From an uncultured Clostridia bacterium (GTDB lineage: Bacteria > Bacillota > Clostridia > Oscillospirales > Oscillospiraceae), in NCBI GenBank assembly GCA_945946745.1, contig CAMEWZ010000002.1, positions 1-37,805 of the forward strand: a DNA stretch of 37,805 nt, read 5' to 3'. This document shows positions 4,115 through 37,532 of this stretch, one piece after another (within the stretch, counting starts at the first letter, position 1; each line of letters opens with the position of its first letter). The position numbers and the translations under genes were made by a program. The notes beneath the pieces are model-generated. The model did not search any database. It was not told the DNA's origin and saw only the letters and a program-made list of their open reading frames with translations.

Positions 4115-4136
4115 ATCAAAGCGGGAGGATCCACGG

Positions 4137-5336: not shown

Positions 5337-5338
5337 CC

Positions 5339-6523
5339 ATGGACATGAAACTGGATTATTCGGATATTTCCTTTCAGAACAACGGCAAGCTGAAGCTTCT
5401 GATTATTGTGGGCACCCGGCCGGAGATCATCCGGCTGGCAGCGGTGATTAACAAGTGCCGGAAGTATTTTGACTGCCTTCTGGCCCACACGGGGCAGAAC
5501 TATGACTATAACCTCAACGGCATTTTCTTCCGGGATCTGGGCCTGGCCGACCCGGATGTGTATATGAACGCGGTGGGCGACGATTTGGGCGCCACGGTGG
5601 GCAACATCATCAACTGTTCCTACAAGCTGATGGCGCAGATTAAGCCCGATGCCATGCTGATTCTGGGCGACACCAATTCCTGCCTGTCCGCCATTCCCGC
5701 CAAGCGGCTGCATATTCCCATTTTTCACATGGAGGCAGGAAACCGCTGCAAGGACGAGTGCCTGCCGGAGGAGACCAACCGCCGGATTGTGGACATCATC
5801 TCCGACGTGAATCTGGCCTATTCCGAGCACGCCCGGAAGTACCTCCACGAGTGCGGCCTGCCCAAGGAGCGAGTCTACGTCACCGGTTCCCCCATGGCAG
5901 AGGTGCTGCACGCGAATCTTGCGGCAATCGAAGCATCCGATGTGCATAAACGTCTGGGCCTTGAGAAGGGAAGATACATCCTGCTATCGGCCCACCGGGA
6001 GGAAAATATCGACACCGAGAAAAATTTCTTTTCCCTGTTTAGCGCCATCAACGCTATGGCGGAGAAATACGATATGCCCATTTTGTATTCCTGCCATCCC
6101 CGCTCCAAAAAGCGGCTGGAAGCCACCGGCTTCCAGCTGGACAGGCGGGTGATTCAGAGCACCCCGCTGGGCTTCCACGACTATAACTGCCTGCAAATGA
6201 ACGCCTTCGCGGTGGTGTCCGATTCCGGCACCTTGCCGGAGGAAAGTAGCTTCTTTACCAGCATCGGCCATCCCTTCCCGGCGGTGTGCATCCGGACTTC
6301 CACGGAGCGGCCCGAGGCTTTGGATAAAGCCTGCTTCATCCTGGCGGGCATTGACGAGGGACACCTGCTTCAAGCGGTGGATACCGCGGTGCAGATGAAC
6401 CTGGAAGGAGATCACGGCATTCCGGTTCCCGACTATGTGGAGGAGAACGTGTCCACCAAGGTGGTCAAGATCATCCAGTCCTACACCGGCGTGGTGGACA
6501 AGATGGTCTGGCGGAAGTATTAA
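5339..6523 (+). CDS. capG: UDP-N-acetylglucosamine 2-epimerase family (CapG/FnlC/WbjD-like)
   Basis: LLIIVGTRPEIIRLAAVINKC, HTGQNYDYNLNGIFFRDL, HMEAGNRCKDECLPEETNRRIVDIISDVN, SDSGTLPEESSFF. Follows capE and capF. Start reassigned to ATG 5339. Confidence 0.93.
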   Translation: MDMKLDYSDISFQNNGKLKLLIIVGTRPEIIRLAAVINKCRKYFDCLLAHTGQNYDYNLNGIFFRDLGLADPDVYMNAVGDDLGATVGNIINCSYKLMAQIKPDAMLILGDTNSCLSAIPAKRLHIPIFHMEAGNRCKDECLPEETNRRIVDIISDVNLAYSEHARKYLHECGLPKERVYVTGSPMAEVLHANLAAIEASDVHKRLGLEKGRYILLSAHREENIDTEKNFFSLFSAINAMAEKYDMPILYSCHPRSKKRLEATGFQLDRRVIQSTPLGFHDYNCLQMNAFAVVSDSGTLPEESSFFTSIGHPFPAVCIRTSTERPEALDKACFILAGIDEGHLLQAVDTAVQMNLEGDHGIPVPDYVEENVSTKVVKIIQSYTGVVDKMVWRKY

Positions 6524-6540: not shown

Positions 6541-7650
6541 ATGAAGTACCTGTTTATCAATTCCGTGGCGGGCTTTGGCAGCACCGGACGGCTGGCGGCG
6601 GAGAAATGCCGGGAATTGATGGCCCAGGGAAACGAATGTGTACTCGCCTTTGGCCGTAAAGAGGCTGGCTGCGAGGATATTCCTACAGTGCGCATCGGCT
6701 CGGACTGGGATTGCCGCCGGAACGCCTTGGAAAACCGACTCCTGGACAACCAGGGCTTTGGCTCCCGGGAGGCAACCCGGCGCTTTCTGACCTGGGTGCG
6801 GCAATATGATCCGGATGTGATCTGGCTGCACAATCTGCACGGCTACTATCTCCACATTGGCGAATTGTTCGACTATCTTCGCATCTGTGGTAAGGAGATC
6901 CGCTGGACACTCCATGACTGCTGGGCCTTCACGGGGCACTGCGCCTACTTTGATTACGCCCGGTGTGACAGGTGGAAAACCGGCTGCGATCATTGCCCGG
7001 AAAAGGGCAGCTATCCCCAAAGCCTCCTGCTGGATGGCAGCCGGAGAAATTTCGAGAAAAAGAAGGCCCTCTTTACGGGAATCCCCAGCCTAAGCTTGAT
7101 CGTCCCCTCCCACTGGCTGGAAAGCCGGGTAAAGGAGAGTTTTTTGGGAGCATATCCGGTGGAGGTGGTGTACAACACCGTCAATACCGATATTTTCAAG
7201 CCTACATCCAGCGATTTTCGCCGGGAGCATGGTCTGGAGGACAAGATCATCCTGCTGGGGGTTGCCAGCGTGTGGGATCGGCGCAAGGGCCTGGAGGATT
7301 TCCTGGCGCTTTCCGGCAGACTGAATGCGAAGTATCAAATCGTATTGGTGGGGCTGACGGAAAAGCAGCGCCGGGGGCTTCCGGAGAACATTCTGGGCCT
7401 GCCCAGAACCAACAGCCCCCGGGAATTGGCGGAGATCTATACCGCCGCCGACCTGTTGCTGAACCCCAGCCTGGAGGAGACCTTCGGCATGACGGTGCTG
7501 GAGGCCCATTGCTGCGGCACAGAGGCGGTGGTATACCAGGATACCGCCTGTGAGGAAATTGTCAATGCATTTGGCGGCCGGGCGGTTCCCCGGGGCGTGG
7601 AGAACCTGTTGGAGGCGGTACTTTCCTGGGAGAAGGAGCGGAATCCATGA
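6541..7650 (+). CDS. Glycosyltransferase family 4 (WcaC-like)
   Basis: FINSVAGFGSTGRLAAEKCREL, WTLHDCWAFTGHCAYFDYARCDRWKTGCDHCP, LNPSLEETFGMTVLEAHCCGT. RBS AAGGAGG upstream. Confidence 0.87.
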   Translation: MKYLFINSVAGFGSTGRLAAEKCRELMAQGNECVLAFGRKEAGCEDIPTVRIGSDWDCRRNALENRLLDNQGFGSREATRRFLTWVRQYDPDVIWLHNLHGYYLHIGELFDYLRICGKEIRWTLHDCWAFTGHCAYFDYARCDRWKTGCDHCPEKGSYPQSLLLDGSRRNFEKKKALFTGIPSLSLIVPSHWLESRVKESFLGAYPVEVVYNTVNTDIFKPTSSDFRREHGLEDKIILLGVASVWDRRKGLEDFLALSGRLNAKYQIVLVGLTEKQRRGLPENILGLPRTNSPRELAEIYTAADLLLNPSLEETFGMTVLEAHCCGTEAVVYQDTACEEIVNAFGGRAVPRGVENLLEAVLSWEKERNP

Positions 7651-8984
7651 CGGAATTTGACTTTTTGAATCAAAAATGGAAAAAGGCGCTGTTTGGATTA
7701 TTCCTGTTTGCCATGCTGCTGCTGGCCAGAGACACCTTGGTGACCTCCTCTATTTTGGGCTTTACCAAAGCCCAGGCCTTGATGCTGGCACTGACCGCGT
7801 TGCTGGGCGCTGCTTTCCTGGCGGCGAACCGAAAGCGGCTGAAAGCCATCGTCACTGACTGGCGGATGGGGTTTCTGGGATTTCTGGCGCTGCTTTTGCT
7901 GCTGCCCATGGTGGTGAAGCGGGATTGGCAGATGATGTATTTCAGCATTTTGTTCTGCCTGGCCTTCGCGGTATTTCTGACCTATTTTGCATCGATGCGG
8001 GATGTTGCCAAGCTTTACGTGGTGATGTTAACTGCGTTGGCGGCATACTCCGTCCTGGCGACCTATGGGCTAAAGGAGCTGGCCGGGGCGGGCGTTCTGA
8101 AGGTGCCGGTGTTCTGCAATTCCAATGACTGGGATTTTTACAACTTTGGTTTCTGCTATGTGGTGACCTGGCCGTTGTGGCATCGAAATTTTGGTATTTT
8201 TCGGGAGCCTGGGGTCTATCAGTTCTTCCTGCTGCTGGCCCTGTATCTCAATCACTACCGGGTGGATTGGAAACGGGCCTGGACGCGGTGGCTGGTCAGC
8301 GGGATTCTGGCCGTCACCATGGTGACCACCTTTGCCATTGGCGGCATCGCGGAGCTGGGGCTTCTGGCAATATTTGTCTACTTTGATCAGAAATGGTATC
8401 GGACAAAGGCAGGGCGAATCGCGGGGCTGTGCGCGGTGGCGGTGGTGCTGGCGCTTCTGGCCCACATTCTGATTACCATCCGAACCACAGCCTTTGAATT
8501 CAGCATTTACTATGAGTTTTACGACATGTTCCTGCGGCTGACGACCCCCTCGGATTCCTCCGTTGACCGGCTCAGCGCCATTTTTACGGATCTGTCGTTT
8601 TTTGGAAAGCATCCTCTGTTTGGGGATACCCTGGCGGAGGTGCTCCACGGAACCAATCACAATACCAGCTCCACGCTGATTCAGTATGCCATTTTCGGCG
8701 TGCTGGGCGGGAGCCTACATGTGGCGGCCTGGGTGGCGCTGATCTGGGAGCGGAAACGATCCATTGTGGGCAATCTGTGTCTGCTGGGAATCCTGTTCCT
8801 GTCCTTCAACACCCAGAATCTGGTTGCGGACGTATTTTTCTGGCTGTTCCCGATGATGGCGCTGACCGAACGGGGACTGACCTACTTCCGGAGGAAAGGA
8901 GAGCGTGCAAATGGAACAGGCATTGCTGCGCAGGGTACAGCTGACCCAGCTGGAGATCGCCAAGGAGATCAAGCGGGTCTGTGA
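7647..8984 (+). CDS. Polytopic membrane protein, candidate Wzy-type O-antigen/capsule polymerase
   Basis: Many hydrophobic segments (LFGLFLFAMLLLA, FLGFLALLLLLPMV, FSILFCLAFAVFLTYF, etc.), a soluble loop and embedding among GTs with a Wzx. No confident sequence motif. ATGA overlap with the upstream GT. Confidence 0.6.
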   Translation: MTEFDFLNQKWKKALFGLFLFAMLLLARDTLVTSSILGFTKAQALMLALTALLGAAFLAANRKRLKAIVTDWRMGFLGFLALLLLLPMVVKRDWQMMYFSILFCLAFAVFLTYFASMRDVAKLYVVMLTALAAYSVLATYGLKELAGAGVLKVPVFCNSNDWDFYNFGFCYVVTWPLWHRNFGIFREPGVYQFFLLLALYLNHYRVDWKRAWTRWLVSGILAVTMVTTFAIGGIAELGLLAIFVYFDQKWYRTKAGRIAGLCAVAVVLALLAHILITIRTTAFEFSIYYEFYDMFLRLTTPSDSSVDRLSAIFTDLSFFGKHPLFGDTLAEVLHGTNHNTSSTLIQYAIFGVLGGSLHVAAWVALIWERKRSIVGNLCLLGILFLSFNTQNLVADVFFWLFPMMALTERGLTYFRRKGERANGTGIAAQGTADPAGDRQGDQAGL

Positions 8985-9753
8985 GGAAAACGGCATCCGG
9001 TATTTTCTGGACGCGGGCACCTTCCTGGGGGCTGTCCGGCATGGGGGCTTCATCCCCTGGGATGATGATATGGACATCGGAATGCTGCGCTCCGATTATG
9101 AGAAATTCTGCCGCATCGCGCCGGAGAAGCTGAAGAAGGAATACTGCCTGCAAACCTGGTATACCGAGCCAAATTACGGCCTGCCCTTCGGCAAGGTGAT
9201 GAAGCGGGGCACAGTGTATTTGGAGAGCAAAAAAACCCGCCGCCTCCAGGAAAACGGCTTCTATGTGGATATTTTCCCTTTCGACGACGTACCCACTTCG
9301 GAGGAGGGGCGCAAAGACCTGGCCAGGCGGCTGCTGCAAATTTACCGGGTTCGGTTGATGAAATGCGGCTACAAGCCCTGGATGGAGGAGGATCGGATTC
9401 TCTGGAAAAAGCGGCTTGGGTATGTATATTACCAGATCCGGGCGCTGTTCGCCGCCAAAAAGGAGTTGGCCCGGGCCTATGATGCCCTGGCGGAATCCAT
9501 CCCGGAAACGGGCCTTGTCTGCGAACAGAGTGCCATGACGGCGCCGATGTACTTTGAACGGAGCTGGTGCGAGGAGCTGGCGATGTACTCCTTTGAAGGA
9601 GTCGCCTTCCCCGGCCCCAAGGAATATGACAAATTCCTCACCGCCATGTATGGCGATTATATGCGCCTTCCCCCGGAAAATGAGCGGGAAAACCGCCATC
9701 AGATTGTCCAGATTGATTTCGGCACGGAAACCCAAAAGGAAGAGACCAAATGA
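8911..9753 (+). CDS. LicD family protein (phosphocholine/phospho-alditol transferase-like)
   Basis: GIRYFLDAGTFLGAVRHGGFIPWDDDMDIGMLRSDYEKF is the diagnostic LicD/FKTN motif. ATG 8911 preferred over GTG 8905 (RBS GGAGGAAAGGAG at 8891-8902). Confidence 0.93.
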   Translation: MEQALLRRVQLTQLEIAKEIKRVCEENGIRYFLDAGTFLGAVRHGGFIPWDDDMDIGMLRSDYEKFCRIAPEKLKKEYCLQTWYTEPNYGLPFGKVMKRGTVYLESKKTRRLQENGFYVDIFPFDDVPTSEEGRKDLARRLLQIYRVRLMKCGYKPWMEEDRILWKKRLGYVYYQIRALFAAKKELARAYDALAESIPETGLVCEQSAMTAPMYFERSWCEELAMYSFEGVAFPGPKEYDKFLTAMYGDYMRLPPENERENRHQIVQIDFGTETQKEETK

Positions 9754-10850
9754 AGCGAGTTCTGTTTTTGACCAATTACCCATCCCCCTACCGGGTGCAC
9801 TTTTTTGACGAGCTGGGAAAAAGCCTGGATGTGACGGTGCTCTATTCCGACCAGGTGGCGGACATTACCCACCGGGATCCAAAGTGGTTCGAGGCGGGCG
9901 AGGGGGGCTTTCACCCGGTGCAGCTGCGGAAAACCGCTGCCTTCCGGGAGGAAAACCTGTGCCTGGATGTGCTGCCCTGGCTGAAAAAGCCCTTTGACCA
10001 TATTGTCATCTGCGGCTACGCCTCGCCGACGGCGATGCTGGCCATGGCCTGGCTGCGGCTGCACCGGGTGCCCTTTTACATGGAAGTGGATGGCGGCCTG
10101 ATCCGGGAGGACAGCGCGGCCAAATACCGCTTCAAGCGGCTGCTGGTCAGCGGCGCTACCTACTGGCTCAGCAGCGGCCCCAAAACCACGGACTATCTTG
10201 TCCATTATGGAGCCAAGGAAGAAGCCGTGCGGACATATCCCTTCACCTCTCTCTGGGAACGGGACATTCTGCCCCAAATTCCCACCCTGGAGGAAAAACA
10301 GTCCCTTCGCCGGAAGCTGGGGATGATGGAGAACCAAATTGTCCTGTATGTGGGCCGGTTTACCCGGGCCAAGGGCATGGATGCCCTGCTGGAGGCGTCT
10401 ACCACCCTGGATTCGGATACCGGCGTTTATTTCGTAGGCGGTGAGCCGGAGAAGGCTCATCTGCGTTTCTGCGAGAGCCAGGGGTTGTCCAATGTCCACT
10501 TTGTGGGCTTTCGGAGGAAGGAACAGCTGACTGATTATTACAAAGCAGCAGATCTGCTGGTGCTGCCCACGGAAAGCGATGTTTGGGGCCTGGTGATCAA
10601 TGAGGCCATGGCCTGCGGCCTGCCGGTGGTTACCACGGATCGATGCGTGGCCGGGTTGGAGCTGGTGGAGGACGGTGTCAACGGCTATCTGGTGCCGGTG
10701 AATGACCGGGAGGCCCTGGCGGAGAAGCTCCAGCTGGTTCTCAGCGCCGATTACCGGGAGATGGGAGAGCGGTCTTTGGAGAAGATCCGCCCATATACCC
10801 TGGAAAATATGGCAAAATCCCATGTGGAAATCTTTGAAAATGAGGGCTGA
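9750..10850 (+). CDS. Glycosyltransferase family 4
   Basis: FLTNYPSPYRVHFFDELGK, VLYVGRFTRAKGMDALLEA, PTESDVWGLVINEAMACGLPVVTTDRCVAGLELVEDGVNGYLV. Confidence 0.9.
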   Translation: MKRVLFLTNYPSPYRVHFFDELGKSLDVTVLYSDQVADITHRDPKWFEAGEGGFHPVQLRKTAAFREENLCLDVLPWLKKPFDHIVICGYASPTAMLAMAWLRLHRVPFYMEVDGGLIREDSAAKYRFKRLLVSGATYWLSSGPKTTDYLVHYGAKEEAVRTYPFTSLWERDILPQIPTLEEKQSLRRKLGMMENQIVLYVGRFTRAKGMDALLEASTTLDSDTGVYFVGGEPEKAHLRFCESQGLSNVHFVGFRRKEQLTDYYKAADLLVLPTESDVWGLVINEAMACGLPVVTTDRCVAGLELVEDGVNGYLVPVNDREALAEKLQLVLSADYREMGERSLEKIRPYTLENMAKSHVEIFENEG

Positions 10851-10853
10851 ACC

Positions 10854-12020
10854 ATGCACATCCTCTACGCGGTGACCACCTGCTCCAACCGAACCTACCG
10901 GCGGCTGTTTGCGAAAGTGGCGGTCAAACCGGCCTTTCAATCCCAGAAATACCACCGCCTGCTCATTGAGGGCCTGGCGACGAACAGCAGGGTGGACGTG
11001 ATTGCCAACCCGCCGGTGAACCGCGCGGTGCTGGATCAAGCCTTTATCCGTCTTTCTCGGGAGGAGGAGGGGGGCGCCTGCTACCATAACCTGCCCGCCA
11101 TCCGTAATCCTCTGTTGAAAGCGGCCTGGGTGGGACTGGGAACCTTCTTTCAGATTCTTCGCTTGGCGGATCGGGATTCCGCGGTGGTGGTGGACGGACT
11201 GAACCGGGTCACCGCTCTGGCGGGAATGTTGGCGGCCCGACTGCGGCGGATACCTTGCGTAGGCATTGTGACGGATCTGCCGGACATGCTGGGTGGCGGC
11301 GGCTTTTCCAAAAAGCTTGCCAATTTCGTCATTGACCATTGTAGCGCCTATGTATTTTTAACCCAGGCCATGAATGGGCGTCTGAATCCAACGGGAAAGC
11401 CGTATGTCATTTTGGAGGGCCACGCCGACATTGCCATGGAGAAGCGCACGCCCTCTTTGGAGAAAAAGCAGCATCCCCGTGTGTGCCTGTATGCCGGGGG
11501 CGTCAGCCGGCAGTACGGCCTGGCCAATTTGGTGGAGGGCTTCCGCCTGGCGAACCTGCCGGATACCGAGCTGCATATCTACGGCCCCGGAGACTATGTG
11601 GAGGAATTAAAGACGGTGGCGGCGGAGGACAGCCGGGTAAAATACGGCGGGATGCTGCTGAACACCGAGATCGTGGACAAGGAGATGGAGGCCACGCTGC
11701 TGGTCAATCCCCGGCCCACATCGGAAGAATTTGTGAAGTATTCCTTCCCCTCCAAAACCATGGAGTACATGTCCACCGGAACGCCGGTGCTGACCACGGT
11801 GCTGCCGGGAATGCCGGAGGAATACCATTCCTATGTGAATTTGATCCGGGAGGAAACGCCCCAGGGCATTGCCCGTGCGCTGCGGGAGACCCTGGAGCGC
11901 AGCGACGAGGCGCTGCTGGAGCAGGGAATGGCGGCGAGAAGCTTTGTGCTGACCCAAAAGGACAATGTGACCCAAGCGGGTAAAATTCTGGAAATGCTGA
12001 CTAGGATGCAAAGGAAGTGA
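10854..12020 (+). CDS. Glycosyltransferase (GT4-like)
   Basis: CLYAGGVSRQYGLANLVEGFRLANLPDTELHIYGPGDYVEEL...VNPRPTSEEFVKYSFPSKTMEYMSTGTPVLTTVLPGMPEEY, a GT-B C-terminal domain. Confidence 0.85.
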   Translation: MHILYAVTTCSNRTYRRLFAKVAVKPAFQSQKYHRLLIEGLATNSRVDVIANPPVNRAVLDQAFIRLSREEEGGACYHNLPAIRNPLLKAAWVGLGTFFQILRLADRDSAVVVDGLNRVTALAGMLAARLRRIPCVGIVTDLPDMLGGGGFSKKLANFVIDHCSAYVFLTQAMNGRLNPTGKPYVILEGHADIAMEKRTPSLEKKQHPRVCLYAGGVSRQYGLANLVEGFRLANLPDTELHIYGPGDYVEELKTVAAEDSRVKYGGMLLNTEIVDKEMEATLLVNPRPTSEEFVKYSFPSKTMEYMSTGTPVLTTVLPGMPEEYHSYVNLIREETPQGIARALRETLERSDEALLEQGMAARSFVLTQKDNVTQAGKILEMLTRMQRK

Positions 12021-12026
12021 CAAACC

Positions 12027-13295
12027 ATGCGGCTGCTGTGGCTGTGCAATACCGCCCCCGGGGTGGTGTGTTCTCATATCAGCGGAAAGCCCACCGGCGG
12101 GGTGAACTGGGTGGATCATGTCCTCAGCGGCCTGCGCCGCCAGGGCCTCACCATCCGGATCTTGTTCCGGGGGGAGGGCGGCAGCGCGCAGCTGGATGAC
12201 GGCTGCGGCTATGCCGCCTTTTCGGAGCCTTTGCCACACCGGTATTACCCGGAGCTGGAGAAACGATTCCGGGCGGAAATCCGTTCCTTTCAACCGGATG
12301 TGATCCACAGCTGGGGCCTGGAATATGGCCATACCCTGGCCATGGTGAACGCTGCCCAGGCGGAGGGAAAGCTGCCCTGCATGGCGGCCAGCATCCAGGG
12401 CCTGTGCGGCTTCATTGCCCGGCATTACGCCGAGGGCATTCCGGAGCGGGTGCAGCGAAGCGCCACCTTTCGGGATTTTGTCCGCCGGGACAATATTCGG
12501 CAGCAGCGGGAAAAGTATGTGCTGCGGGGCCGGATGGAGGCCCAGGCCATGAAAATGCTGAGCCACGTCATTGGCCGCACCGACTGGGATCGGGCCTGCG
12601 CGAAAACATGGAATCCGGACATTGTCTATCATTTCTGTGGGGAAACCCTGCGGGAGCCTTTTTACCAGGGGCAGTGGCGCTATGATGCCTGCCGTCCCCA
12701 CCGGATTTTCGCCTCCAGCTGCGAATACCCGGTGAAGGGGTTCCACTATCTGCTGGAAGCCTTTTCGGAGGTGCTGAAAACCTACCCGGACGCTACGCTG
12801 GCCGTCCCCGGAAGAAGCTTTCTTTCCGGCGGGGCCCAGGCCCGTCTTCGTCGGGGCAGTTATGAAAAGTATCTGGAAACCCTGGCAAAACAATGGAATT
12901 TGACGGATAAAATCGAATTTCTGGGGGATCTCAGCGGGGAGGAGATGAAGGCGGCTTATGTAAGCGCCAACGTCTTTGTCCTGCCCTCCACCATAGAGAA
13001 TTCCCCTAACTCCCTGGGGGAGGCCATGCTGCTGGGGGTTCCTTGCGTAGCCAGTGACGTAGGCGGTGTGTCCAGCCTCATGCGCCACGGCAGCGAGGGC
13101 CGGATTTACCAGTCAACCGCTCCCTATATGCTGGCATATCATATCCAGACGCTGTTTGCCATGGGGCCGGAGGCGGCATCCCTGGGCCAGGCGGCCCGCG
13201 CCCACGCCCAGGTGACCCATGATCCGGAACGGAATCTGGAGACCCTGTTGGCGATTTATGGGGAGCTTGCCGGGGGAGGGAACTGCCATGGGTAA
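12027..13295 (+). CDS. Glycosyltransferase family 4
   Basis: CNTAPGVVCSHISGKPTGGVNWVDHVLSGL, VFVLPSTIENSPNSLGEAMLLGVPCVASDVGGVSSL. Confidence 0.88.
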   Translation: MRLLWLCNTAPGVVCSHISGKPTGGVNWVDHVLSGLRRQGLTIRILFRGEGGSAQLDDGCGYAAFSEPLPHRYYPELEKRFRAEIRSFQPDVIHSWGLEYGHTLAMVNAAQAEGKLPCMAASIQGLCGFIARHYAEGIPERVQRSATFRDFVRRDNIRQQREKYVLRGRMEAQAMKMLSHVIGRTDWDRACAKTWNPDIVYHFCGETLREPFYQGQWRYDACRPHRIFASSCEYPVKGFHYLLEAFSEVLKTYPDATLAVPGRSFLSGGAQARLRRGSYEKYLETLAKQWNLTDKIEFLGDLSGEEMKAAYVSANVFVLPSTIENSPNSLGEAMLLGVPCVASDVGGVSSLMRHGSEGRIYQSTAPYMLAYHIQTLFAMGPEAASLGQAARAHAQVTHDPERNLETLLAIYGELAGGGNCHG

Positions 13296-14274
13296 GCGCT
13301 TGAGTGTCATTGTGCCGGTTTATAACGTGGCGGCGTATCTGAGCCGGTGCGTGGATTCCTTGTTGGAGCAAAAGGACGTGGAGCTGGAAATTTTGCTGGT
13401 AGACGACGGCTCCACGGACGCATCCGGCAGTATCTGCGATGGCTACGCGGCCCGGGATTCCCGGGTGAGGGTCATCCACAAGGAAAACGGCGGCTTGAGC
13501 ATCGCCCGGAACGCGGGCCTGGACGCGGCGGAGGGGGAGTATCTGACCTTCGTGGACAGCGATGATTATGTGGAGCCGGATTCCTATGGCCCCATGCTGG
13601 CGCTGGCGGAGCGCTGGGGCGCAAGGCTGGTGTGCGGCGGCCGGTATGACGTGGATGGCAATACCGGTGAAAAAACGGTGGGCTTGTGTCCCGAAAAAAC
13701 CGAGCGGATTTCCGGGGAGGAGCTGGCGGGCAGGATTTTTCTGTGGGATGGCTGCGATTCCAGCGCCTGTGACAAGCTTTACCACCGCTCCCTGTTTGAT
13801 GCCATCCGCTACCCGGAGGGCCGGGTCTGCGAGGATGTGCCGGTAACCTACCGGCTTGTGCTGAAGGCAGAGTGGGTTGTGCTTTGGAATCGGCCCTATT
13901 ATCACTACTACCACCGGCCGGGGAGCATCACCACGGCGGAGGTGTCGGAAAAGACCCTCCATTTTTCCCAGCATACGGCGGCGATTTACGAGGATATTCG
14001 GAAAAATCACCCGAATATCGAACCACAGGCCCGCTTTTTGCGGGTAAAGTCCCTGTCCCATCTAATGCTTCTGCTGGGTCAGGCGGAGCCGGAAAAACGG
14101 CGGCAGTTTGCCGGAGAATACCGGCAGGCCCGGAGAAACTTAAGCCGCCACACGGCTTTTTTCCTAAGCAGTCCCTATTTCGACCGGAAGGAACGGCTGC
14201 GGGATCTGCTGCTGGTGCTGGGCTTGTACCGCTTTGTGCGTCCGTTCTTTCACAAAGAGGCGCAAAGCCTGTAA
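13288..14274 (+). CDS. Glycosyltransferase family 2
   Basis: RLSVIVPVYNVAAYLSRCVDSLLEQ...LLVDDGSTDASGSICDGYAARDSRVRVIHKENGGLSIARNAGLD...FVDSDDYVEP. Start reassigned to ATG 13288 (8-nt overlap with the upstream CDS). Confidence 0.92.
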   Translation: MGKRLSVIVPVYNVAAYLSRCVDSLLEQKDVELEILLVDDGSTDASGSICDGYAARDSRVRVIHKENGGLSIARNAGLDAAEGEYLTFVDSDDYVEPDSYGPMLALAERWGARLVCGGRYDVDGNTGEKTVGLCPEKTERISGEELAGRIFLWDGCDSSACDKLYHRSLFDAIRYPEGRVCEDVPVTYRLVLKAEWVVLWNRPYYHYYHRPGSITTAEVSEKTLHFSQHTAAIYEDIRKNHPNIEPQARFLRVKSLSHLMLLLGQAEPEKRRQFAGEYRQARRNLSRHTAFFLSSPYFDRKERLRDLLLVLGLYRFVRPFFHKEAQSL

Positions 14275-14304
14275 GGAATCTTCCATTTTTTCACTGGAGT
14301 TACC

Positions 14305-15693
14305 ATGAAACGACAGAACCGAGTTGCTTTTTTTAATATTTTGAGCACCTTGCTGCTGCGGGGCATCTCGTTTATCACCATGCCGCTGTTCACCCGGCTG
14401 CTGGGAGACAGCGGCTATGGCGTGACCCAGATCTACAATACCTGGGTTAGTGTGCTGGCCATCGTGTTCACCCTGCAAACCCAGGGAACCCTGGTCAACG
14501 CCCGGGTAGAGTACCCGGAGGAGGAGCAGGCGCAGTACCAGTCCGCGGTTATGGGCTTGTCGCTGCTGCTGTTTTTGACTTGTGCCGCGGCGGTGCTGTG
14601 CTTCCTCGGCCCGGTTTCCGCGGCGCTGAAGCTGGATCGGCTGCTGATCGTGCTGATGCTGCTTCAGGCCTTTGGCACCTACTGCGTCAATTTCCTGAAC
14701 ATGAAGTTCGTCTATGAGTTCAAGGCGGGCCGGAACATGGTGCTGTCCCTGGTGGTCACCCTGGTGACCCTGGGGCTTTCCCTGGCGTTGATTCTGCCCA
14801 TGCCCCAGGAGCAGCGGTATTACGGCAGAATCGTGGCTATTGCCGCGACCTATAGTGTACTGGGCATTCCTGCCTGCATCTACATTCTGGCGAAGGGAAA
14901 GACGCTGGTTCACCGGGAGTATTGGAAATTCTGCGTTGGCTTGGCCATTCCGGTGGTATTTTATAACCTGTCGGATCTGATCCTGGGCCAGAGTGATAAG
15001 GTCATGGTGCAGCAGATGCTGGATGACGCCCGGGCGGGCCGGTATTCCGCGGCGCTGACCTTTGGCGGCGTGATGTTTACCATTTTCGGGGCGCTGAACA
15101 ATACCTGGTGCCCCTTCTTTTTTGAGGACATGAAGCAGGGGGATCGGGAGCAGGTTCGGCAGAAGGCGAAGAACTTTCTGGAGCTGTTTACCGTGCTGTC
15201 CATGGGCTTTGTTCTGCTGGTGACGGAGGTTTACCATGTGGTGGTGGATCAAACCTTCTGGGATGGAACGATGCTGATTCCCATTTTTGTATCCAGTTAT
15301 TTCTTGAATTTTCTGTGTACCTTCCCCATTAACTATGAGTACTACCGCAAGCGCACCAAGGCGGTGGCTGTGGTGACCATTGGCGCTTCCCTGCTGAATC
15401 TGGGGCTGAATTATGTGCTGATCCGCTGGATGGGCATGGCGGGGGCGGCAGTGGCCACCATGCTGTCCCACGGAATCCAGCTGGGAACGCACCATGTTTA
15501 CACCCGGTATTTCCTGGGAAAAGCGGATTATCCCTTCGGCTTGGGTCTGTGGGGGAAATACGCGCTGGCTTATTTTGCCGTTGTGGCGCTGGTGCTGCTG
15601 GGGCAGGACGCGGCGCTGCTGCGCTGGTGCCTGGGCGGCGCCATCGGTGTATGGGAGCTGCTGCGCATCCGGAAACGGCGGGTATTGATTTGA
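14305..15693 (+). CDS. Oligosaccharide flippase, Wzx/MATE-like polysaccharide transporter
   Basis: MKRQNRVAFFNILSTLLLRGISFITMPLFTRLLGDSGYGVTQIYNTWVSVL is a typical N-terminus of polysaccharide biosynthesis (RfbX/Wzx) proteins. ~12 hydrophobic segments follow. Confidence 0.9.
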   Translation: MKRQNRVAFFNILSTLLLRGISFITMPLFTRLLGDSGYGVTQIYNTWVSVLAIVFTLQTQGTLVNARVEYPEEEQAQYQSAVMGLSLLLFLTCAAAVLCFLGPVSAALKLDRLLIVLMLLQAFGTYCVNFLNMKFVYEFKAGRNMVLSLVVTLVTLGLSLALILPMPQEQRYYGRIVAIAATYSVLGIPACIYILAKGKTLVHREYWKFCVGLAIPVVFYNLSDLILGQSDKVMVQQMLDDARAGRYSAALTFGGVMFTIFGALNNTWCPFFFEDMKQGDREQVRQKAKNFLELFTVLSMGFVLLVTEVYHVVVDQTFWDGTMLIPIFVSSYFLNFLCTFPINYEYYRKRTKAVAVVTIGASLLNLGLNYVLIRWMGMAGAAVATMLSHGIQLGTHHVYTRYFLGKADYPFGLGLWGKYALAYFAVVALVLLGQDAALLRWCLGGAIGVWELLRIRKRRVLI

Positions 15694-22979: not shown

Positions 22980-23837
22980 ATGGCTGACATTTCGCAATCC
23001 AATTATCACATTCATATTACCGCCAAGCACCGCTGGCTGGATCTGAATTTGAAGGAGGTCTGGCGGTATCGGGACTTGATCCTTCTGTTTACCAGGCGGA
23101 ATTTTGTGGTGTCCTATAAGCAGACCGTGCTGGGCCCCGCCTGGATTTTCTTGACGCCTTTGTTCAGCAGTATCGTCCAGGCCTTCGTCTTTGGCGGCAT
23201 CGCGGGCATTGAGACCGATGGCATTCCCATGCTGCTGTTTTATCTTTGCAGCAACGCGGTGTGGGGCTTCTTCTCCACGTGCCTAACCAACAACGCCGGA
23301 ACCTTTACGGAAAACGCCTATGTGTTTGGCAAGGTGTATTTCCCCCGGCTGACCACGCCCATCTCCAACATCCTGTCCTGCGCCATCCGGTTTGGCATTC
23401 AGATGATCCTGGTTCTGATTTTTATGGTGTATTTTCTCATCCAGGGAACGGTGCATCCCAATTGGTGGGCATGGTTCCTCATTCCGGTGGAGCTGATCCA
23501 TCTGGGAATTCTGGGCATGGGCTTTGGCATTATCATTTCCAGCCTGACCACCAAGTATCGGGATCTGACGGTGCTGGTGGGCTTTGGCGTGTCCCTGTGG
23601 ATGTATCTGACCCCCATTGTTTACCCTTTGTCTACGGCGGCGGAGGGCTGGATGAAAACCGCGCTGATGATCAACCCGGTGACCATTCCCGTGGAGCTGA
23701 TGCGCTTTGCCATTTTGGGGAAGGGCACCTTCCATCTGGGGTACTACAGCCTGTCCTGGGTGGTGACGCTCTTGGTGGCGGTGCTGGGCATCATGATCTT
23801 CAATAAGGTCGAGCGGAACTTTATGGATACGGTGTAA
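22980..23837 (+). CDS. Polysaccharide ABC exporter permease (Wzm-like, ABC-2 type)
   Basis: RYRDLILLFTRRNFVVSYKQTVLGPAWIFLTPLFSSIVQAFVFGGIAGIETDGIPMLLFY is typical of the Wzm/TagG/RfbA permease N-terminus. ~6 TM segments. Next to the Wzt-like ATPase. Confidence 0.93.
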   Translation: MADISQSNYHIHITAKHRWLDLNLKEVWRYRDLILLFTRRNFVVSYKQTVLGPAWIFLTPLFSSIVQAFVFGGIAGIETDGIPMLLFYLCSNAVWGFFSTCLTNNAGTFTENAYVFGKVYFPRLTTPISNILSCAIRFGIQMILVLIFMVYFLIQGTVHPNWWAWFLIPVELIHLGILGMGFGIIISSLTTKYRDLTVLVGFGVSLWMYLTPIVYPLSTAAEGWMKTALMINPVTIPVELMRFAILGKGTFHLGYYSLSWVVTLLVAVLGIMIFNKVERNFMDTV

Positions 23838-23849
23838 GGAGGGAAAGCC

Positions 23850-25145
23850 ATGGAAGAACAGAAAATTGCCATCCGGCTTTCCGGGGTCAAGAAGCGCTAC
23901 AAACTGGGTCAAATTGGCGGCGGAACGCTGACCGCTGACCTGCAAAGCTGGTGGGCAAGGGTTCGGGGAAAAGAGGATCCCAACACCTTGATCGGAACAG
24001 ACCAGCGCCTGGTGGGGCAGACCTTCATGGCCTTAAACGGCATTGACCTGACGGTATATAAGGGGGAGGCCCTGGGCATCATCGGCGGCAACGGCGCGGG
24101 AAAGAGCACCATGCTGAAGCTGCTGTGCCGGGTCACCGCCCCCACGGAGGGTGAGATCGACATCTACGGCCGGGTGGCCTCCATGCTGGAGGTGGGTACC
24201 GGCTTCAATGGAGAAATGACCGGCCGGGAAAATGTCTATATGAACGGCGCGATTTTGGGCATGACCAAGGCGGAGATCGACGCCAAAATGGAGGATATCA
24301 TCGAATTTTCCGAGGTGCGGGATTTCATCGACACCCCGGTCAAGCGCTATTCCAGCGGCATGTTTGTCAAGCTGGCCTTCTCTGTGGCGGCCCATTTGGA
24401 CAGCGAGATCATGATTATGGACGAGGTGCTAGCGGTGGGCGACGTGGCATTCCAGCACAAATGCCTGGATAAAATGCGTTCCGTGGCCAAAACCGAGGGC
24501 CGGACGGTGCTGTATGTGTCCCACAATATGAACACCATCCGCCGCCTGTGTGACCGGTGCATCGTGCTGGACAAGGGCAGGATCCTTTTTGAGGGGGATG
24601 TGGAGAAGGCTATTGAGATTTATCTCAGCAACGCCCACGAGCAGTGGTCGAATTGCCAGACGGAGTTTGATCTGACCGAGGCCCCCGGGCGTTCCCCCTA
24701 TACGCCGGGAGACGCGCAGATTACCTATGTCAAGCTGCTGGACAAGGCCAGCGCCATGTATGGTTCTGGAGAGAAGCTGCGCTTTGAAATGCGGATTCTG
24801 ACGAAAAGAGCCTTTTCGGATCTGCGGCTGCGGCTGGAGCTGCGCTATGGCGACGAAACCCCGGTGGGTACCATGCCGGATGTATCTCTGGGCAGCTGCC
24901 AGGAAAACGGGGAACGAAGCTATACGGTGGAATTTGACCCCATCCAGCTGACCAACGGCAAATACCGGCTGGATATGGTGCTGTTTGAGAAGGACGACTG
25001 CGGCAACAGCTACGACCAGGAGCTGCTGTTGCCTGCCTTCTTCTTTGAGGTGCAGCAGCCGGAGGAGCTGGTCTGGAACCAGACCAACTGGGGCCATATC
25101 CGGTTCCCGGATGCGGTGGTGACGCCTCTGGGTGTGGAGGAATAG
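23850..25145 (+). CDS. Polysaccharide ABC exporter ATP-binding protein (Wzt-like) with C-terminal carbohydrate-binding-type extension
   Basis: Walker A GGNGAGKSTMLKLL, signature YSSGMFVKLAFSVA, Walker B EIMIMDEVLAVGD. ~150-residue C-terminal domain (AQITYVKLLDKASAMYGSGEKLRFEMRI...) like Wzt C-terminal domains. Confidence 0.94.
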   Translation: MEEQKIAIRLSGVKKRYKLGQIGGGTLTADLQSWWARVRGKEDPNTLIGTDQRLVGQTFMALNGIDLTVYKGEALGIIGGNGAGKSTMLKLLCRVTAPTEGEIDIYGRVASMLEVGTGFNGEMTGRENVYMNGAILGMTKAEIDAKMEDIIEFSEVRDFIDTPVKRYSSGMFVKLAFSVAAHLDSEIMIMDEVLAVGDVAFQHKCLDKMRSVAKTEGRTVLYVSHNMNTIRRLCDRCIVLDKGRILFEGDVEKAIEIYLSNAHEQWSNCQTEFDLTEAPGRSPYTPGDAQITYVKLLDKASAMYGSGEKLRFEMRILTKRAFSDLRLRLELRYGDETPVGTMPDVSLGSCQENGERSYTVEFDPIQLTNGKYRLDMVLFEKDDCGNSYDQELLLPAFFFEVQQPEELVWNQTNWGHIRFPDAVVTPLGVEE

Positions 25146-31150: not shown

Positions 31151-32695
31151 ATGAAGAACAAAACAGAATTCTGGAAAACGCCGGCAGCGGCGGCGATGCT
31201 TACGGCGCTGGCAGCGGGGCTGCTGGTTCACCTGTTTGGCCTGGTGAACATCCTGCACAACAACGATGATATCTGGCAGCAGCCCATGGGTTACGGAGCG
31301 GGCATTACCTCCGGACGGTGGCTGCTGACGGTTCTGGGGGATTTCCTCTCCAGACAGGGCTTTGGCTATAATCTGCCGGTGGTGAACGGGGTGCTGTTCC
31401 TGGTGCTGGTGGCCCTGTGCAGCGGGGTGATCGTGGCCGTGCTGCCCATTCGCTGCCGGAAGATGGCAGCGCTGTTCGGCGCGCTGTTCGCGGTGTTTCC
31501 CGCCATCACCAGCGTGCTGTTTTTTAAGTATACCACTGTGTACTATGGCTTGGCGCTGCTGCTGGCGGTGCTGGCGGCCTGGACACTCCGGGAGGACACG
31601 AAGCTGGGACTGCTGCTGTCGGCCCTGTGTACGGCCCTGTCTCTGGGAATATACCAGGCCTATGTGCCGGTGACGGTTACCTTGCTGGTGCTGATGCTGC
31701 TGCGGCAGACGCTGGAGGGAAAGACGGATGGGAAGAAGCTGCTTCTGCGGGGGCTGTATTTCTGCGCCGGGCTGATCCTGGGCGTACTGCTGTACTTCGT
31801 GTTCCTCAAGATATCCCTGGCGGTTTACCATACCGCGCTGAGCGACTACCAGGGCGTGGACAACATGGGCAGAATCTCCCTGGGCGCTCTGCCCAAGCTG
31901 ATTCGGCGGGCAGTGGGAGACGTGTGCAAGCTGCCGATCTACGACTATTGCGGACTGGCCAATGTGGGCCTTCTGAAGCTGGCTTATGTGGTTCTGGCGG
32001 GCGTATCCGCCGTCCTGGGAGTGTACACGGTTCTGACGCGGAGACTGAAGCCGGGACAGCTGGGGATGACGCTGCTGCTCTGCGCGGCACTGCCGGTGGC
32101 GCTGAATTTTGTGGTGATTATGTGCCCGGACACCTTGATTTACACCTTGATGGTGGCGTCCTTTGCTCTGATTCCCTGCATCCCCATGGTGCTGCTGGAG
32201 GTTTTTCCTGTGGACAGAGGCGGCAGGCTGAAGGCGGCGGCGGGAAAGCTCACCGCCGTGGCGGTGGCGGCGCTGATTTTCGGCTATGGCTATTACGCCA
32301 ATGTGAATGATACCGCCATGTACTTCGCCAACCGGCAGGTGGAGAACTATTGGAGCACCCTGGTGGCCCAGGTTCGGATGACGGAGGGCTTTGACACGGA
32401 CAAGCAGTGGGCGCTGATCGGCGAAATTTCGGATCCCCTGCTGGGCAGCGGCTGGGTGGACGGCGTGACCTACGGCGGAAACCGGTTCACCGACGATCTG
32501 CTGAATCAATATTCCCGGCTGGCCTGGGTGACCCATTATCTGGGCTACCGGGTGCCGGAGGCCAGTGAGCAGACCATTGCGGCGCTGGCCGCGTCCGACG
32601 AGGTAAAGGCCATGCCCTGCTGGCCCAATTATGGCTCCATCCGGGTGATCGGGGACACGGTGGTTATCAAGTTCCAGGAGATGTCCCAGGGATAG
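31151..32695 (+). CDS. Polytopic membrane glucosyltransferase-domain protein (GtrII-like)
   Basis: ILHNNDDIWQQPMGYGAGITSGRWLLTVLGDFLSRQGFGYNLPVVNGVLFLVLVALC: N-terminal D-D/E region followed by a GRW motif and many TMs, as in GtrII-type proteins. Start reassigned to ATG 31151. Confidence 0.78.
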   Translation: MKNKTEFWKTPAAAAMLTALAAGLLVHLFGLVNILHNNDDIWQQPMGYGAGITSGRWLLTVLGDFLSRQGFGYNLPVVNGVLFLVLVALCSGVIVAVLPIRCRKMAALFGALFAVFPAITSVLFFKYTTVYYGLALLLAVLAAWTLREDTKLGLLLSALCTALSLGIYQAYVPVTVTLLVLMLLRQTLEGKTDGKKLLLRGLYFCAGLILGVLLYFVFLKISLAVYHTALSDYQGVDNMGRISLGALPKLIRRAVGDVCKLPIYDYCGLANVGLLKLAYVVLAGVSAVLGVYTVLTRRLKPGQLGMTLLLCAALPVALNFVVIMCPDTLIYTLMVASFALIPCIPMVLLEVFPVDRGGRLKAAAGKLTAVAVAALIFGYGYYANVNDTAMYFANRQVENYWSTLVAQVRMTEGFDTDKQWALIGEISDPLLGSGWVDGVTYGGNRFTDDLLNQYSRLAWVTHYLGYRVPEASEQTIAALAASDEVKAMPCWPNYGSIRVIGDTVVIKFQEMSQG

Positions 32696-32715
32696 AAAAA
32701 AGAGGAGTATTGGGT

Positions 32716-33720
32716 ATGAAAACCGTAAAAATCAAATTTGTGGGAAAAAGCGCCGGACTCCGGCCGGAGGACAACCTGGTATGCTACTATCTGCAAAAGA
32801 ACGGCTATGAGGTGGTGCTTTCGGAGGAACCGGACTATGTTATCTGCGACGTATTTGGCAATCCGCCCTATGCATACTGCCGGTATCCCCAGATCCGGAT
32901 CTTTGAAAGCGGGGAGAATTATACCCCGGATTTCAATGTGATGGACTATGCCATCTGCCGCTATCCCATCTCCTTTTCCGACCGCTGCTTTTATCTGCCC
33001 GGCTGCACCAATCCGGGAGACCATTGGCATGCGCTGGCGAAGAAGGATCGGAGCCGGTATGACCTGGAATTCCTCCGGGCGAAGCCTTACTTTGCCAATT
33101 TTATATCCGGGCATGATTCCGAGCACAACATCCGGGGCGATTTCTTCCGCAAGCTGAACCAGTACAAACGGGTGGAAGCTGCGGGAACTCTGTACAACAA
33201 CATGCCCGGCGGCCAAACGGTGGACTGGTTGGACGGCAGCAAGACAGAGCTGCAAAGAAAAAGCAAATTTACGATCTGCTTTGAAAGCACCTGCCACTAT
33301 GGCTTCATCACGGAGAAAATCACCGACGCGTTCTACGCCGATACCATTCCCATCTACTACGGCAGCCCAAACATCACCGAGATCTTCAACAAAAACGCCT
33401 TCATCAACTGCACGGATTATCCCAGCTTTGACGCGGTGATCGAGAAGATCAAAGAGCTGGATCAGGATGACGAAAAATATCTGGAAATGCTCCGTCAGCC
33501 CATTCTGGTGGATCCTACCTATCCCGAAAGGCTGGACAAGGCGCTGGAGCAATTCCTCTTAAACATTTTTGAGCAGCCCTATGACCAGGCCTACCGCCGC
33601 TGCCGGGCTTATTATCCCAAGAATCATGACGATTATCTGGCAAACTGCATCGAGCCGACGAAGGGGTATCTACTGAAGCAGCGCCTCAAGCAGGCGCTGT
33701 CCCGGAAAGAGAAAGAATAG
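32716..33720 (+). CDS. Glycosyltransferase family 10 (fucosyltransferase-like)
   Basis: YFANFISGHDSEHNIRGDFFRKLNQYKRVEAAGTLYNNM and KFTICFESTCHYGFITEKITDAFYADTIPIYYGSPNITEIFNKNAFIN are the conserved alpha-1,3-fucosyltransferase C-terminal motifs. ATG 32716 with RBS AGAGGAG. Confidence 0.92.
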   Translation: MKTVKIKFVGKSAGLRPEDNLVCYYLQKNGYEVVLSEEPDYVICDVFGNPPYAYCRYPQIRIFESGENYTPDFNVMDYAICRYPISFSDRCFYLPGCTNPGDHWHALAKKDRSRYDLEFLRAKPYFANFISGHDSEHNIRGDFFRKLNQYKRVEAAGTLYNNMPGGQTVDWLDGSKTELQRKSKFTICFESTCHYGFITEKITDAFYADTIPIYYGSPNITEIFNKNAFINCTDYPSFDAVIEKIKELDQDDEKYLEMLRQPILVDPTYPERLDKALEQFLLNIFEQPYDQAYRRCRAYYPKNHDDYLANCIEPTKGYLLKQRLKQALSRKEKE

Positions 33721-33799: not shown

Positions 33800-33828
33800 C
33801 TGTCAACTGTCAACTTTCCACTGTCAAC
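33800..33828. repeat. Three short direct repeats of CTGTCAAC
   Basis: CTGTCAACTGTCAACTTTCCACTGTCAAC at 33800-33828. Confidence 0.7.
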
Positions 33829-33863
33829 AGCCTTCCCGATACGATATGGGGGAGGCTGTTTTT
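33827..33863 (+). terminator. Rho-independent terminator closing the polysaccharide cluster
   Basis: ACAGCCTTCCC (33827-33837) / GGGGAGGCTGT (33849-33859), 11-bp stem with one wobble, followed by a TTTT tract and a T-rich region. Confidence 0.85.
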
Positions 33864-33959: not shown

Positions 33960-36900
33960 GTGTATCTGAAATCTTTGGAATTACAGGGCTTTAAATCCTT
34001 TCCGGATAAGACCCTGATCCGGTTCGGTGATGACATTACCGCCATCGTCGGCCCCAATGGCTCCGGCAAGTCCAATATTTCCGACGCCATCCTCTGGGTC
34101 ATGGGCGAGCAAAGCTCCAAGACCCTCCGGGGCGCGAAAATGGAGGACGTGATCTTCGGCGGCACCCAGAAGCGTTCCGCCGTGGGGTTCGCGGAGGCGA
34201 CCTTGACGCTGGACAATTCCGACCGGGAGCTGGCCTATGATGCCGACGAGGTCATGGTCACCCGGCGCTATTACCGCTCCGGGGACAGCGAATTTTACAT
34301 CAACAAGCAGTCCGCCCGGCTTAAGGACATCAACGAGCTGTTTATGGACACCGGCCTGGGCAAGGAGGGCTACTCCAATATCGGCCAGGGCCGTATTGAC
34401 GAAATCCTCTCCCTAAAAAGCGGCGACCGCCGGGAAATTTTTGAGGAGGCGGCGGGCATCTCCAAATACCGCCACCGCAAGGAGGAGACGGAGCGAAAGC
34501 TGGAGCGTACGGAGGATAACTTGCTGCGCATCGGCGACAAGGTTTCCGAGTTGGAATTGCAGCTGGAGCCTTTGAAGGTTCAGTCCGAGAAGGCGAAAAA
34601 ATATCTGGAACTGAAAGATGAACTCAAAGGGGTGGAGGTGGCCGTTTGGCTGGACACCCTGGACAAGCTATCCGCCGCGGCGAAGAAGGCGGAGGAGGAC
34701 TATGCCTCCGCGTCCTTCGTGCTGCAGCAGGCCCATGATGATCTGGACAGCCTCTACCGCCAAGCAGAGGAACTGACCCAGCTCCTCCATACCCGGGACG
34801 GGGAATTGGAGACCGTGCGGGTCAAGGTCAACATGCTCAGCGCCACCCATCAGCAGCTGGAAGGCCAGATGGCGGTGCTTCAGGGCAACGTGGAGAATAA
34901 TAACGCCAACATTGCCCGAATTGAGGAAGAATTAAAGGGCCAGGAAGATCGCAGCGGCGGCATTGCGGCCCAAATACAGCAGACCCAGAGCAGAATCGGG
35001 GAAATTGAGGCGGCGCTGGGAGAAAAGCGCCGGGAGCTGGATCGCCTGCAGCAGGAGCTCACCGCCATGACCTCCAATGCCCAGGGCATCACCAAGCAGT
35101 TTTTGGAGCTGCGGGGACAGGAATCCACCCTGGCGGCGGATATTGCCGGCCGGCAGGCGGATGTCCGTGGCCTGGAGGAGGGCATGGTGCAGACCCGGCA
35201 GCGGCTGGAGCAGCTGGATGCTGACCTGTCCTCCGGCGCGGCCCGGCATCACGAGGCCCAGGCCAGTCTGGACAATGCCCGCAAGGAGCTGCGGACAGCC
35301 CGGGACAATGTCACTGCGGCCAACAATACCATTTCCGGCTATACCCTCCGGCAGACTACCCGCCTAAAACGCCGGGATGATTTGCAGCAGAGCCTGCGGG
35401 AGCTGAACCAAAAGCTGGACGCGGCGTCCGCCAAGGCCCGGGTGTTCCGAGCCATGGAGCGGGACTTTGAAAGCTACAACAAAGCCGTCCGGATGGTGAT
35501 GCAGGAGGCCCAGCGGGGCGCCCTGCGGAATATCCACGGGCCGGTATCCCGATTGATCCGCACGGAGGACAGCTATACCGTGGCCATTGAGATCGCACTG
35601 GGGGCGGCCATGCAGCAGATCGTGGTGGGCAGCGAGGCCGACGGCAAGGCGGCCATCTCCTACCTGAAGCGCACCGGCGGCGGCCGGGCCACCTTCCTGC
35701 CGCTGAGCACCATTCAAGGCAGAACCTTGCAGGAAACCGGCCTGGAAAACTGCCGGGGGTTTGTGGGGATTGCTTCCCAACTGGTGACATCGGATCCCCA
35801 GTACCGGGGAATCGTGGAAAATCTCCTGGCCCGGACGGTGATCGTCCAGGATATGGACGCGGCCATCAGCATGTCCCAAAAATACCGGGGCCGCTTTAAA
35901 ATCGTCACTCTGGACGGCCAGGTGATGAACCCCGGCGGCTCCATGACCGGCGGTTCCGTGAACAAGGACGCGGGCATTTTGTCCCGGGCCAACGAACTGG
36001 AAAAGCTGACGGCCCAGGAGAAGCAATTGCAGCAGGATAAACTGGTGACAGAAGCTGAATTGCAGGAGGCCCAGCGCCAGTGTGACCAGGTGGAGTTCCA
36101 GATGAGCGCCGCCCGGGATCAGCTCCGGGAAGCGGAGGATCAGGTGCTGCGGCTGGAGGGCCAGGAAAAACAGTATGAGATTTTGCTGAATGCCATTGTG
36201 GAGGCGGAGACCTCCGCCCAGCGGGAGCGGGACGCACTGAAGGAGCGGGACAGCTCCGATAAGAGCCGCTACGCTGCCCAGCAGGCGAAGATCCAGGTCT
36301 ACACCCAGCAATTGGAGCAGACCCGCCAGACCCTGGCAAAGCTGGAAGGCAGCCAGACCGAGGCGGCTGAGGCTACCACGGCCATCTCCGAGAAGATGAC
36401 CGCCTTGAAAACTGGAGAAGCGGCCCTGGATGCCGAGCGCTCCACCGCGCTGGCCCATATCACTGACCTGGAAAATCTGCGGGGCGCCATGGAGGGAGAC
36501 CGGGAGAAAAAGCTGGCTCTGATAGATGCCATCCGGGAGGACACCGCCCGCCTGGAAGGGGAGATCGCCTCCCTTAAGCAGCGCCAGGAGGAAAACGACC
36601 GGGAAAGCGCGGACAGGAACACCCAGATGCAAAAGACCTTGGAAAGCCGGGCAGAGGCAGAAGCCGCCAAAACCCGGGCGGAACGGGATGCCCAGGAGAA
36701 AAACAAGGACATCCTCAACATGGAGCGGGCCTGCGCCCTGCTGGAGCAGAAGAAGGTCACCTCCTCCATGGAGGAAAAGCAGATCATCGACAAGCTGTGG
36801 GAATCCTACGGCTTGACGCCCGGCACGGCCGGAGAGCATCGGGGTGAGATCGAGAATGTCACCGCCGGCAGCCGTCGGGCATCGGAGCTGAAACGGAAAA

Positions 36901-37532
36901 TCGCGGCGCTGGGCACGCCGAACCTGGGCGCCATTGAGGAATACGCCCGGATCAACGAACGCTACACGTATCTGGCGGAGCAGCGGGATGATGTGCTGAA
37001 TTCCAAGCGGGAGTTGGAGAGCGTCATCCGGGATATTACCAAGGAAATGACCACGATTTTTGTGACGGAATTCACCAAAATCGACCATTATTTCGGCCAG
37101 ACCTTCGAGGAAATGTTCGGCGGCGGCAAGGGACAGCTGATTTTGGAGGATCCGGAGGATCCCCTGGCCTGCGGCATCGAGATTCGGGTTCAGCCCCCCG
37201 GAAAGCAGGTCAAGACCATCACCCTGCTCTCCGGCGGCGAGAAGGCCTTCGTGGCTACGGCCCTGTACTTCGCCATTTTGAAGGTGCGCCCCACGCCCTT
37301 CTGTCTGCTGGACGAGATCGACGCGGCTTTGGATGACCGAAACGTGGAACGGTTTGCCAGCTACCTGCACAATTTGGCGAAAAAGACCCAGTTTATCGTC
37401 ATTACCCACCGCCGGGGCACCATGGAATCTGCGGATGTGCTCTACGGTGTCACCATGCAGGAGCAGGGCGTGAGTAAGCTGCTGCGGCTGGATTTGAACC
37501 AGATGGAGCAGTATTTGGGAATTGTGGAATGA
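33960..37532 (+). CDS. smc: Chromosome segregation protein SMC (GTG start)
   Basis: [17 protein letters not shown], Walker A [23 protein letters not shown], long coiled coils, hinge (FVGIASQLV...[11 protein letters not shown]-type region), signature [19 protein letters not shown], Walker B [13 protein letters not shown]. 1190 aa. Confidence 0.98.
   Translation: [1190 protein letters not shown]

Follow-up and report, generated by a model that had tools for sequence, protein, structure and literature searches.

The window (i.e., the whole stretch of 37,805 nucleotides analysed) carries a glycosyltransferase gene of the GT10 family as the last gene of its cluster, the position that the original prediction had given it. 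Its open reading frame (32716–33720, on the forward strand like the flanking, GT4, Cap, Wzm and Wzt features of the window given below) is undamaged, starts with an ATG codon behind a GAGGAG Shine-Dalgarno sequence located 8 nt upstream (32702–32707, by direct sequence reading), and yields a product of 334 amino acids. Directly 5′ of it lies a gene for a GtrII-type polyprenyl-phosphate glycosyltransferase (31151–32695; PF14264, 3e-57), and on its 3′ side follow a terminator-like hairpin with a T run (33826–33860; one found vs. 0.4 expected in shuffles) and smc for chromosome segregation (33960–37532, named by eye from the sequence), a cluster border that recurs in another locus (L044, position 12877). 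The gene has a G+C content of 51.7% vs. 57.7% for the window, which fits acquisition from elsewhere. A search of phages and plasmids for near kin returned distant GT10 matches only (cyanophages, one uncultured phage and Azospirillum plasmids), which covered part of the query at less than 35% identity, and thus gave no sign of a mobile origin.

The family assignment made in the original prediction was borne out. In Pfam, the protein matched Glyco_transf_10 (PF00852; residues 127–257, 8.4e-19, 68.4 bits vs. a cut-off of 23.9) and FucT_N (PF18025; residues 6–95, 3.1e-14, above the gathering score), and the NCBIfam profiles gave no usable match for it. The Helicobacter pylori fucosyltransferase FucT was the top match in the PDB (2nzw, 8.6e-32), and an AF2 model (pLDDT of 80.5, built from a 6-sequence alignment) likewise retrieved H. 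pylori 2nzx/2nzw as its top Foldseek matches (E-value of 8.4e-18, TM-score of 0.57–0.62). By sequence and modelled fold, the protein is a member of the GT10 family, with a predicted GT-B fold like that of the solved GT10 enzymes.

The residue numbering of H. pylori FucT (2NZW/2NZX/2NZY) was carried over to this protein from the alignments, which placed Glu95, Arg195, Glu249 and Lys250 at Glu67, Arg140, Glu200 and Lys201, respectively, all of them invariant across 18 aligned GT10 rows. In the H. pylori enzyme, Glu95 has been put forward as the base and Glu249 is the stabilising residue (PMC4202792), and Tyr246, Glu249 and Lys250 interact with GDP-fucose (PMC11468063). Since both the catalytic base (Glu67) and the residues serving the phosphate and transition state (Arg140, Glu200 and Lys201) are kept, the protein should be a functional inverting transferase. 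The two enzymes thus share family, FucT_N domain, fold and these four residues, at about 25% identity on the structure alignment, but three other positions differ: Asn189 is replaced by His133, Asn240 by Ser191 (codon 33286–33288) and Tyr246 by Phe197. The asparagine of the FEN motif (Asn240) is present in all aligned GDP-fucose GT10 enzymes, i.e., H. pylori FucT, Arabidopsis FUT11, mango FUT13 and human FUT9, and the upstream "SN" asparagine (Asn189) in the same enzymes except mango FUT13; both may touch the nucleotide sugar. The FEN asparagine and Tyr246, a feature of GDP-L-fucose transferases, are therefore absent here. For the alpha-1,3-fucosyltransferase motifs that the original prediction had described as intact around 33265–33391, the location held, with the aligned donor-site motif FESTCHYGFITEKITDAFYADTIPIYYGSP at 33280–33369, but the intactness did not, given these three replacements. 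The loss of the GDP-fucose site that it had named as counter-evidence is thus seen in part.

GT10 genes are rare in the host family: PF00852 matches were found in 7 of 251 genomes of the family and 7 of 391 of the class, and querying 84,980 species genomes with the GT10 protein added five further loci. The clostridial enzymes were grouped by the residue at the Ser191 position, from sequence and ahead of any search for CapF (see below), with G643 being placed by its serine and the tree. The Ser-type ("FES") branch, with the motif CFEST..GF.TEK, comprises 11 members (the window genome, G639–G642, G230, G259, G276, G462, G326 and the more distant G643), and the Asn-type comprises G032, G057, G139, G140, G186, G472 and G408, the last being a short, partial copy that was left out of the tree. 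In a maximum-likelihood tree, the 11 Ser-type rows were separated from the others by a branch with a support of 90/86. Serine was found in 11/11 Ser-type rows and asparagine in 7/7 Asn-type rows of the tree, and the histidine corresponding to His133 in 10/11 Ser-type rows. The Tyr246-to-Phe change was also considered as a marker of the branch and was dropped, because this position varies in the Asn-type group too. The Asn-type clostridial enzymes show 30–38% identity to the window GT10.

The window contains neither gmd nor fcl, as originally noted, and extending the search to the assembled genome (70% complete) revealed no gmd, no Fkp/FPGT and no convincing fcl. Among the 11 Ser-type genomes, G276 alone had a gmd match above the cut-off (situated on a different contig), none had an Fkp/FPGT match (PF07959) above it, and manC was present in two (G276 and G462). 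No gmd, Fkp or manC was found in G259 (100% complete) and G326 (95% complete), so that, unlike in the H. pylori setting, no known route to GDP-fucose should be available in these near-complete genomes. The Asn-type genomes, in contrast, had gmd in 5/7 and manC in 6/7 cases, a difference with a Fisher test value of 0.013 for each gene (with genomes treated as independent and several being incomplete MAGs). In four of these seven (G032, G057, G139 and G140), the GT10 gene sits inside a gmd/fcl/manC operon; these relatives of the same family and bacterial class differ from the window enzyme in their kept FEN asparagine, their gene neighbours and the lack of CapF in their genomes. On two features of a GDP-fucose transferase, i.e., the conserved asparagine and the donor supply, the window protein fails. 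The Lewis-type, host-like fucosylation put forward by the original prediction was discarded as the leading interpretation, given that the GDP-fucose supply is missing across the Ser-type branch; another of its options, that donor specificity differs, is now favoured, since the branch tracks a different sugar pathway.

Two further arrangements of fucose-type genes were observed. In G057 (L099:9234–12387) and G139 (L100:10794–13968), a WecE-like gene of the aminotransferase fold lies between gmd and fcl, an order that recalls GDP-colitose synthesis (ColD/ColC), so that the Asn-type GT10 of these genomes may serve colitose instead of fucose. In G242, a congener of the window genome, gmd, fcl and an Fkp-like frame of 1129 codons carrying a fucose pyrophosphorylase domain lie together on one contig (C28:8052–18437), and a PF00852 search of this genome found no GT10.

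CapF is the diagnostic step of UDP-L-FucNAc synthesis. A gene set for this pathway, at 3065–6523 in the same window, had not been connected with the GT10 gene in the original prediction. It consists of a CapE/FnlA-like UDP-GlcNAc 4,6-dehydratase/5-epimerase (3065–4114; best NCBIfam match FnlA with 3.3e-157 and 523 bits, below the cut-off of 730; PF02719, 1.6e-106), CapF, a bifunctional reductase/epimerase with a cupin domain (4149–5336; full-length match to S. aureus Cap5F 2zkl with 9.6e-108; NF047837, 4.2e-101, below cut-off; PF14667, 3.2e-46), and a CapG-like UDP-HexNAc 2-epimerase (5339–6523; TIGR00236, 1.5e-61; PF02350, 1.8e-74). Together, CapE, CapF and CapG convert UDP-GlcNAc to UDP-L-FucNAc (PMC6441080). 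Directly 5′ of CapE lies a GT4 glycosyltransferase gene (1827–3068; WcaI/WbuB-like, NF007640 WcaI family with 2.4e-29, below cut-off).

CapF was found in all 11 Ser-type genomes and in none of the seven Asn-type genomes (Fisher test, 3e-5, again counting partly incomplete MAGs as independent, although the carriers belong to five or more families), against a class background of 57/391 genomes. When the own genome was left out and only the class draw was considered, the association persisted (4/4 vs. 52/386, p = 4e-4). It also held within a single genus (g143), where the Ser-type G276 has CapF and the Asn-type G472 does not. Moreover, the window, G639 and G259 have GT10 and CapF on the same contig, whereas in the other Ser-type genomes the two apparently lie on separate contigs, so that their coupling is not simple hitch-hiking. 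A UDP-L-FucNAc transferase would have its donor pathway in the same cell, which is what was found. CapG lies near CapF in nine Ser-type members including the window, and not beside it in G641 and G642.

Beside CapE/F/G of G259 (L067:1316–3236) and G640 (L094:11065–12994), a galactokinase-like GHMP kinase gene and a small NTP_transferase gene were observed, possibly a salvage kinase and nucleotidyltransferase for a 6-deoxy-amino sugar. In genus g143, the CapF match came in two pieces within a single open frame of 451 or 439 amino acids (G276:C15:35514–36791 and G430:C30:60994–62271), suggesting an insertion between its two domains.

The cluster further encodes an ABC export system, i.e., the polysaccharide transporter permease Wzm (22980–23837; PF01061, 5.8e-17) and the ATPase Wzt (23850–25145; partial matches to NF010065/NF050108), which has a C-terminal carbohydrate-binding Wzt_C domain (within 24630–25142; PF14524, 3.2e-8, above gathering). 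The genes for Wzm, Wzt and GT10 lie side by side in G641, G642, G259, G276 and G326 (with Wzt broken into two frames in G326), and share a cluster in the window and G639. PF14524 was above its cut-off in four of the five Wzt proteins tested (window, L046, L047 and L066) and below it in L044. In known systems, this C-terminal domain recognises the polymer's non-reducing cap (PMC9445017, PMC11231755), which makes a cap role possible for a sugar added by GT10 to an ABC-exported polymer. The arrangement is like that of the ABC O-antigen cappers (e.g., ORF7 of Klebsiella pneumoniae O4, GT137), where a transferase gene is linked to Wzm and to Wzt with Wzt_C (principle in PMC11231755 and PMC9445017). 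Unlike the present case of a GT10 gene in Gram-positive Clostridia, known from gene linkage, the caps known there are Kdo from CMP-Kdo, or methyl or phosphate groups. Since GT10 occurs by itself in G640 and G462 and comes after a Wzx flippase gene in G230, a capping role would not be general. The window was also seen to hold a Wzy/Wzx-type set (7647–15693, labels by eye) in addition to Wzm/Wzt (22980–25145), so that two surface polymers may come from one locus.

The explanation that fits these data best is that an inverting transferase of the GT-B type has moved away from GDP-L-fucose, for which the GT10 family is otherwise known, and would instead transfer N-acetyl-L-fucosamine from UDP-L-FucNAc, made from UDP-GlcNAc by CapE, CapF and CapG of the cluster. 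L-FucNAc and L-fucose share the L-galacto 6-deoxy frame, so that going from L-fucose to its 2-acetamido form, together with the change of nucleotide, would be chemically modest. The acceptor would probably be a lipid-linked polysaccharide exported by Wzm/Wzt, to which L-FucNAc would be attached at a late stage, where it may form a chain cap that Wzt recognises through its carbohydrate-binding domain. That the donor is something other than GDP-fucose seems quite probable. That it is UDP-L-FucNAc for the Ser-type enzymes, a donor deduced from gene co-occurrence, we consider somewhat better than an even chance, and the capping role is suggested more weakly. The full scenario, in which the branch switched both nucleotide and sugar to UDP-L-FucNAc, is marked by the Asn-to-Ser and Asn-to-His changes, and caps Wzt-recognised polysaccharides in gut-type Clostridia, is tentative and, taken as a whole, doubtful.

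Co-occurrence with CapF does not by itself prove the donor, as CapE/F/G also feed other transferases, and the GT4 directly upstream of CapE is an alternative candidate L-FucNAc transferase. FucNAc could then sit in the acceptor of GT10, with a different sugar being donated. Under such an arrangement, the GT4 would act like S. aureus CapL, a characterised GT-B type L-FucNAc transferase that works with CapE/F/G (PMC6441080). However, no glycosyltransferase gene lies beside CapE/F/G in G640 and G643, and no alternative 6-deoxy-L-sugar donor for GT10 is evident, which leaves this division of labour very unlikely. The preferred assignment of UDP-L-FucNAc to GT10 itself would share with CapL the pathway and the predicted donor, but not the type of transferase, as we know of no description of CapL as a GT10 enzyme. 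A third nucleotide sugar has slightly more in its favour while still being improbable. UDP-L-PneNAc is the CapE/CapF intermediate, and it, another UDP-6-deoxy-L-HexNAc or dTDP-L-rhamnose might be the substrate of the Ser-type enzymes, as CapG is not beside CapF in G641 and G642 and RmlB-like genes occur in several neighbourhoods. Against this, CapG is near CapF in the other nine members, the window among them, and CapF follows the Ser-type branch perfectly.

The reading closest to the original prediction keeps an ordinary GDP-L-fucose enzyme that adds a terminal fucose, Lewis-like or not, and whose donor is either made by genes missing from the assembly or obtained by salvaging fucose of the host. 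The incompleteness of the own genome leaves room for such genes, a congener (G242) does encode gmd, fcl and a fused frame of Fkp size, and the catalytic residues of the GT10 protein are kept. This congener has no GT10, however, and ten relatives on the branch show the same or nearly the same lack, including genomes that are 95–100% complete and devoid of detectable gmd, Fkp and manC. As, in addition, two asparagines common to the aligned GDP-fucose enzymes are replaced, ordinary fucosylation appears unlikely, ranking between the two alternatives above.

Genes like the present one are easily called alpha-1,3-fucosyltransferases, a name that hints at gut bacteria decorated with Lewis structures like those of the host. 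If the branch uses UDP-L-FucNAc, this call would be wrong for its Ser-type members, which would instead handle a sugar known from the capsules of S. aureus and other pathogens. To our knowledge, this would be the first GT10 route to L-FucNAc. It would also constitute a natural donor switch within GT10, allowing a residue-level comparison with the fucose enzymes, and the serine or asparagine at a single position offers a simple rule that genomes and enzyme assays could put to the test.
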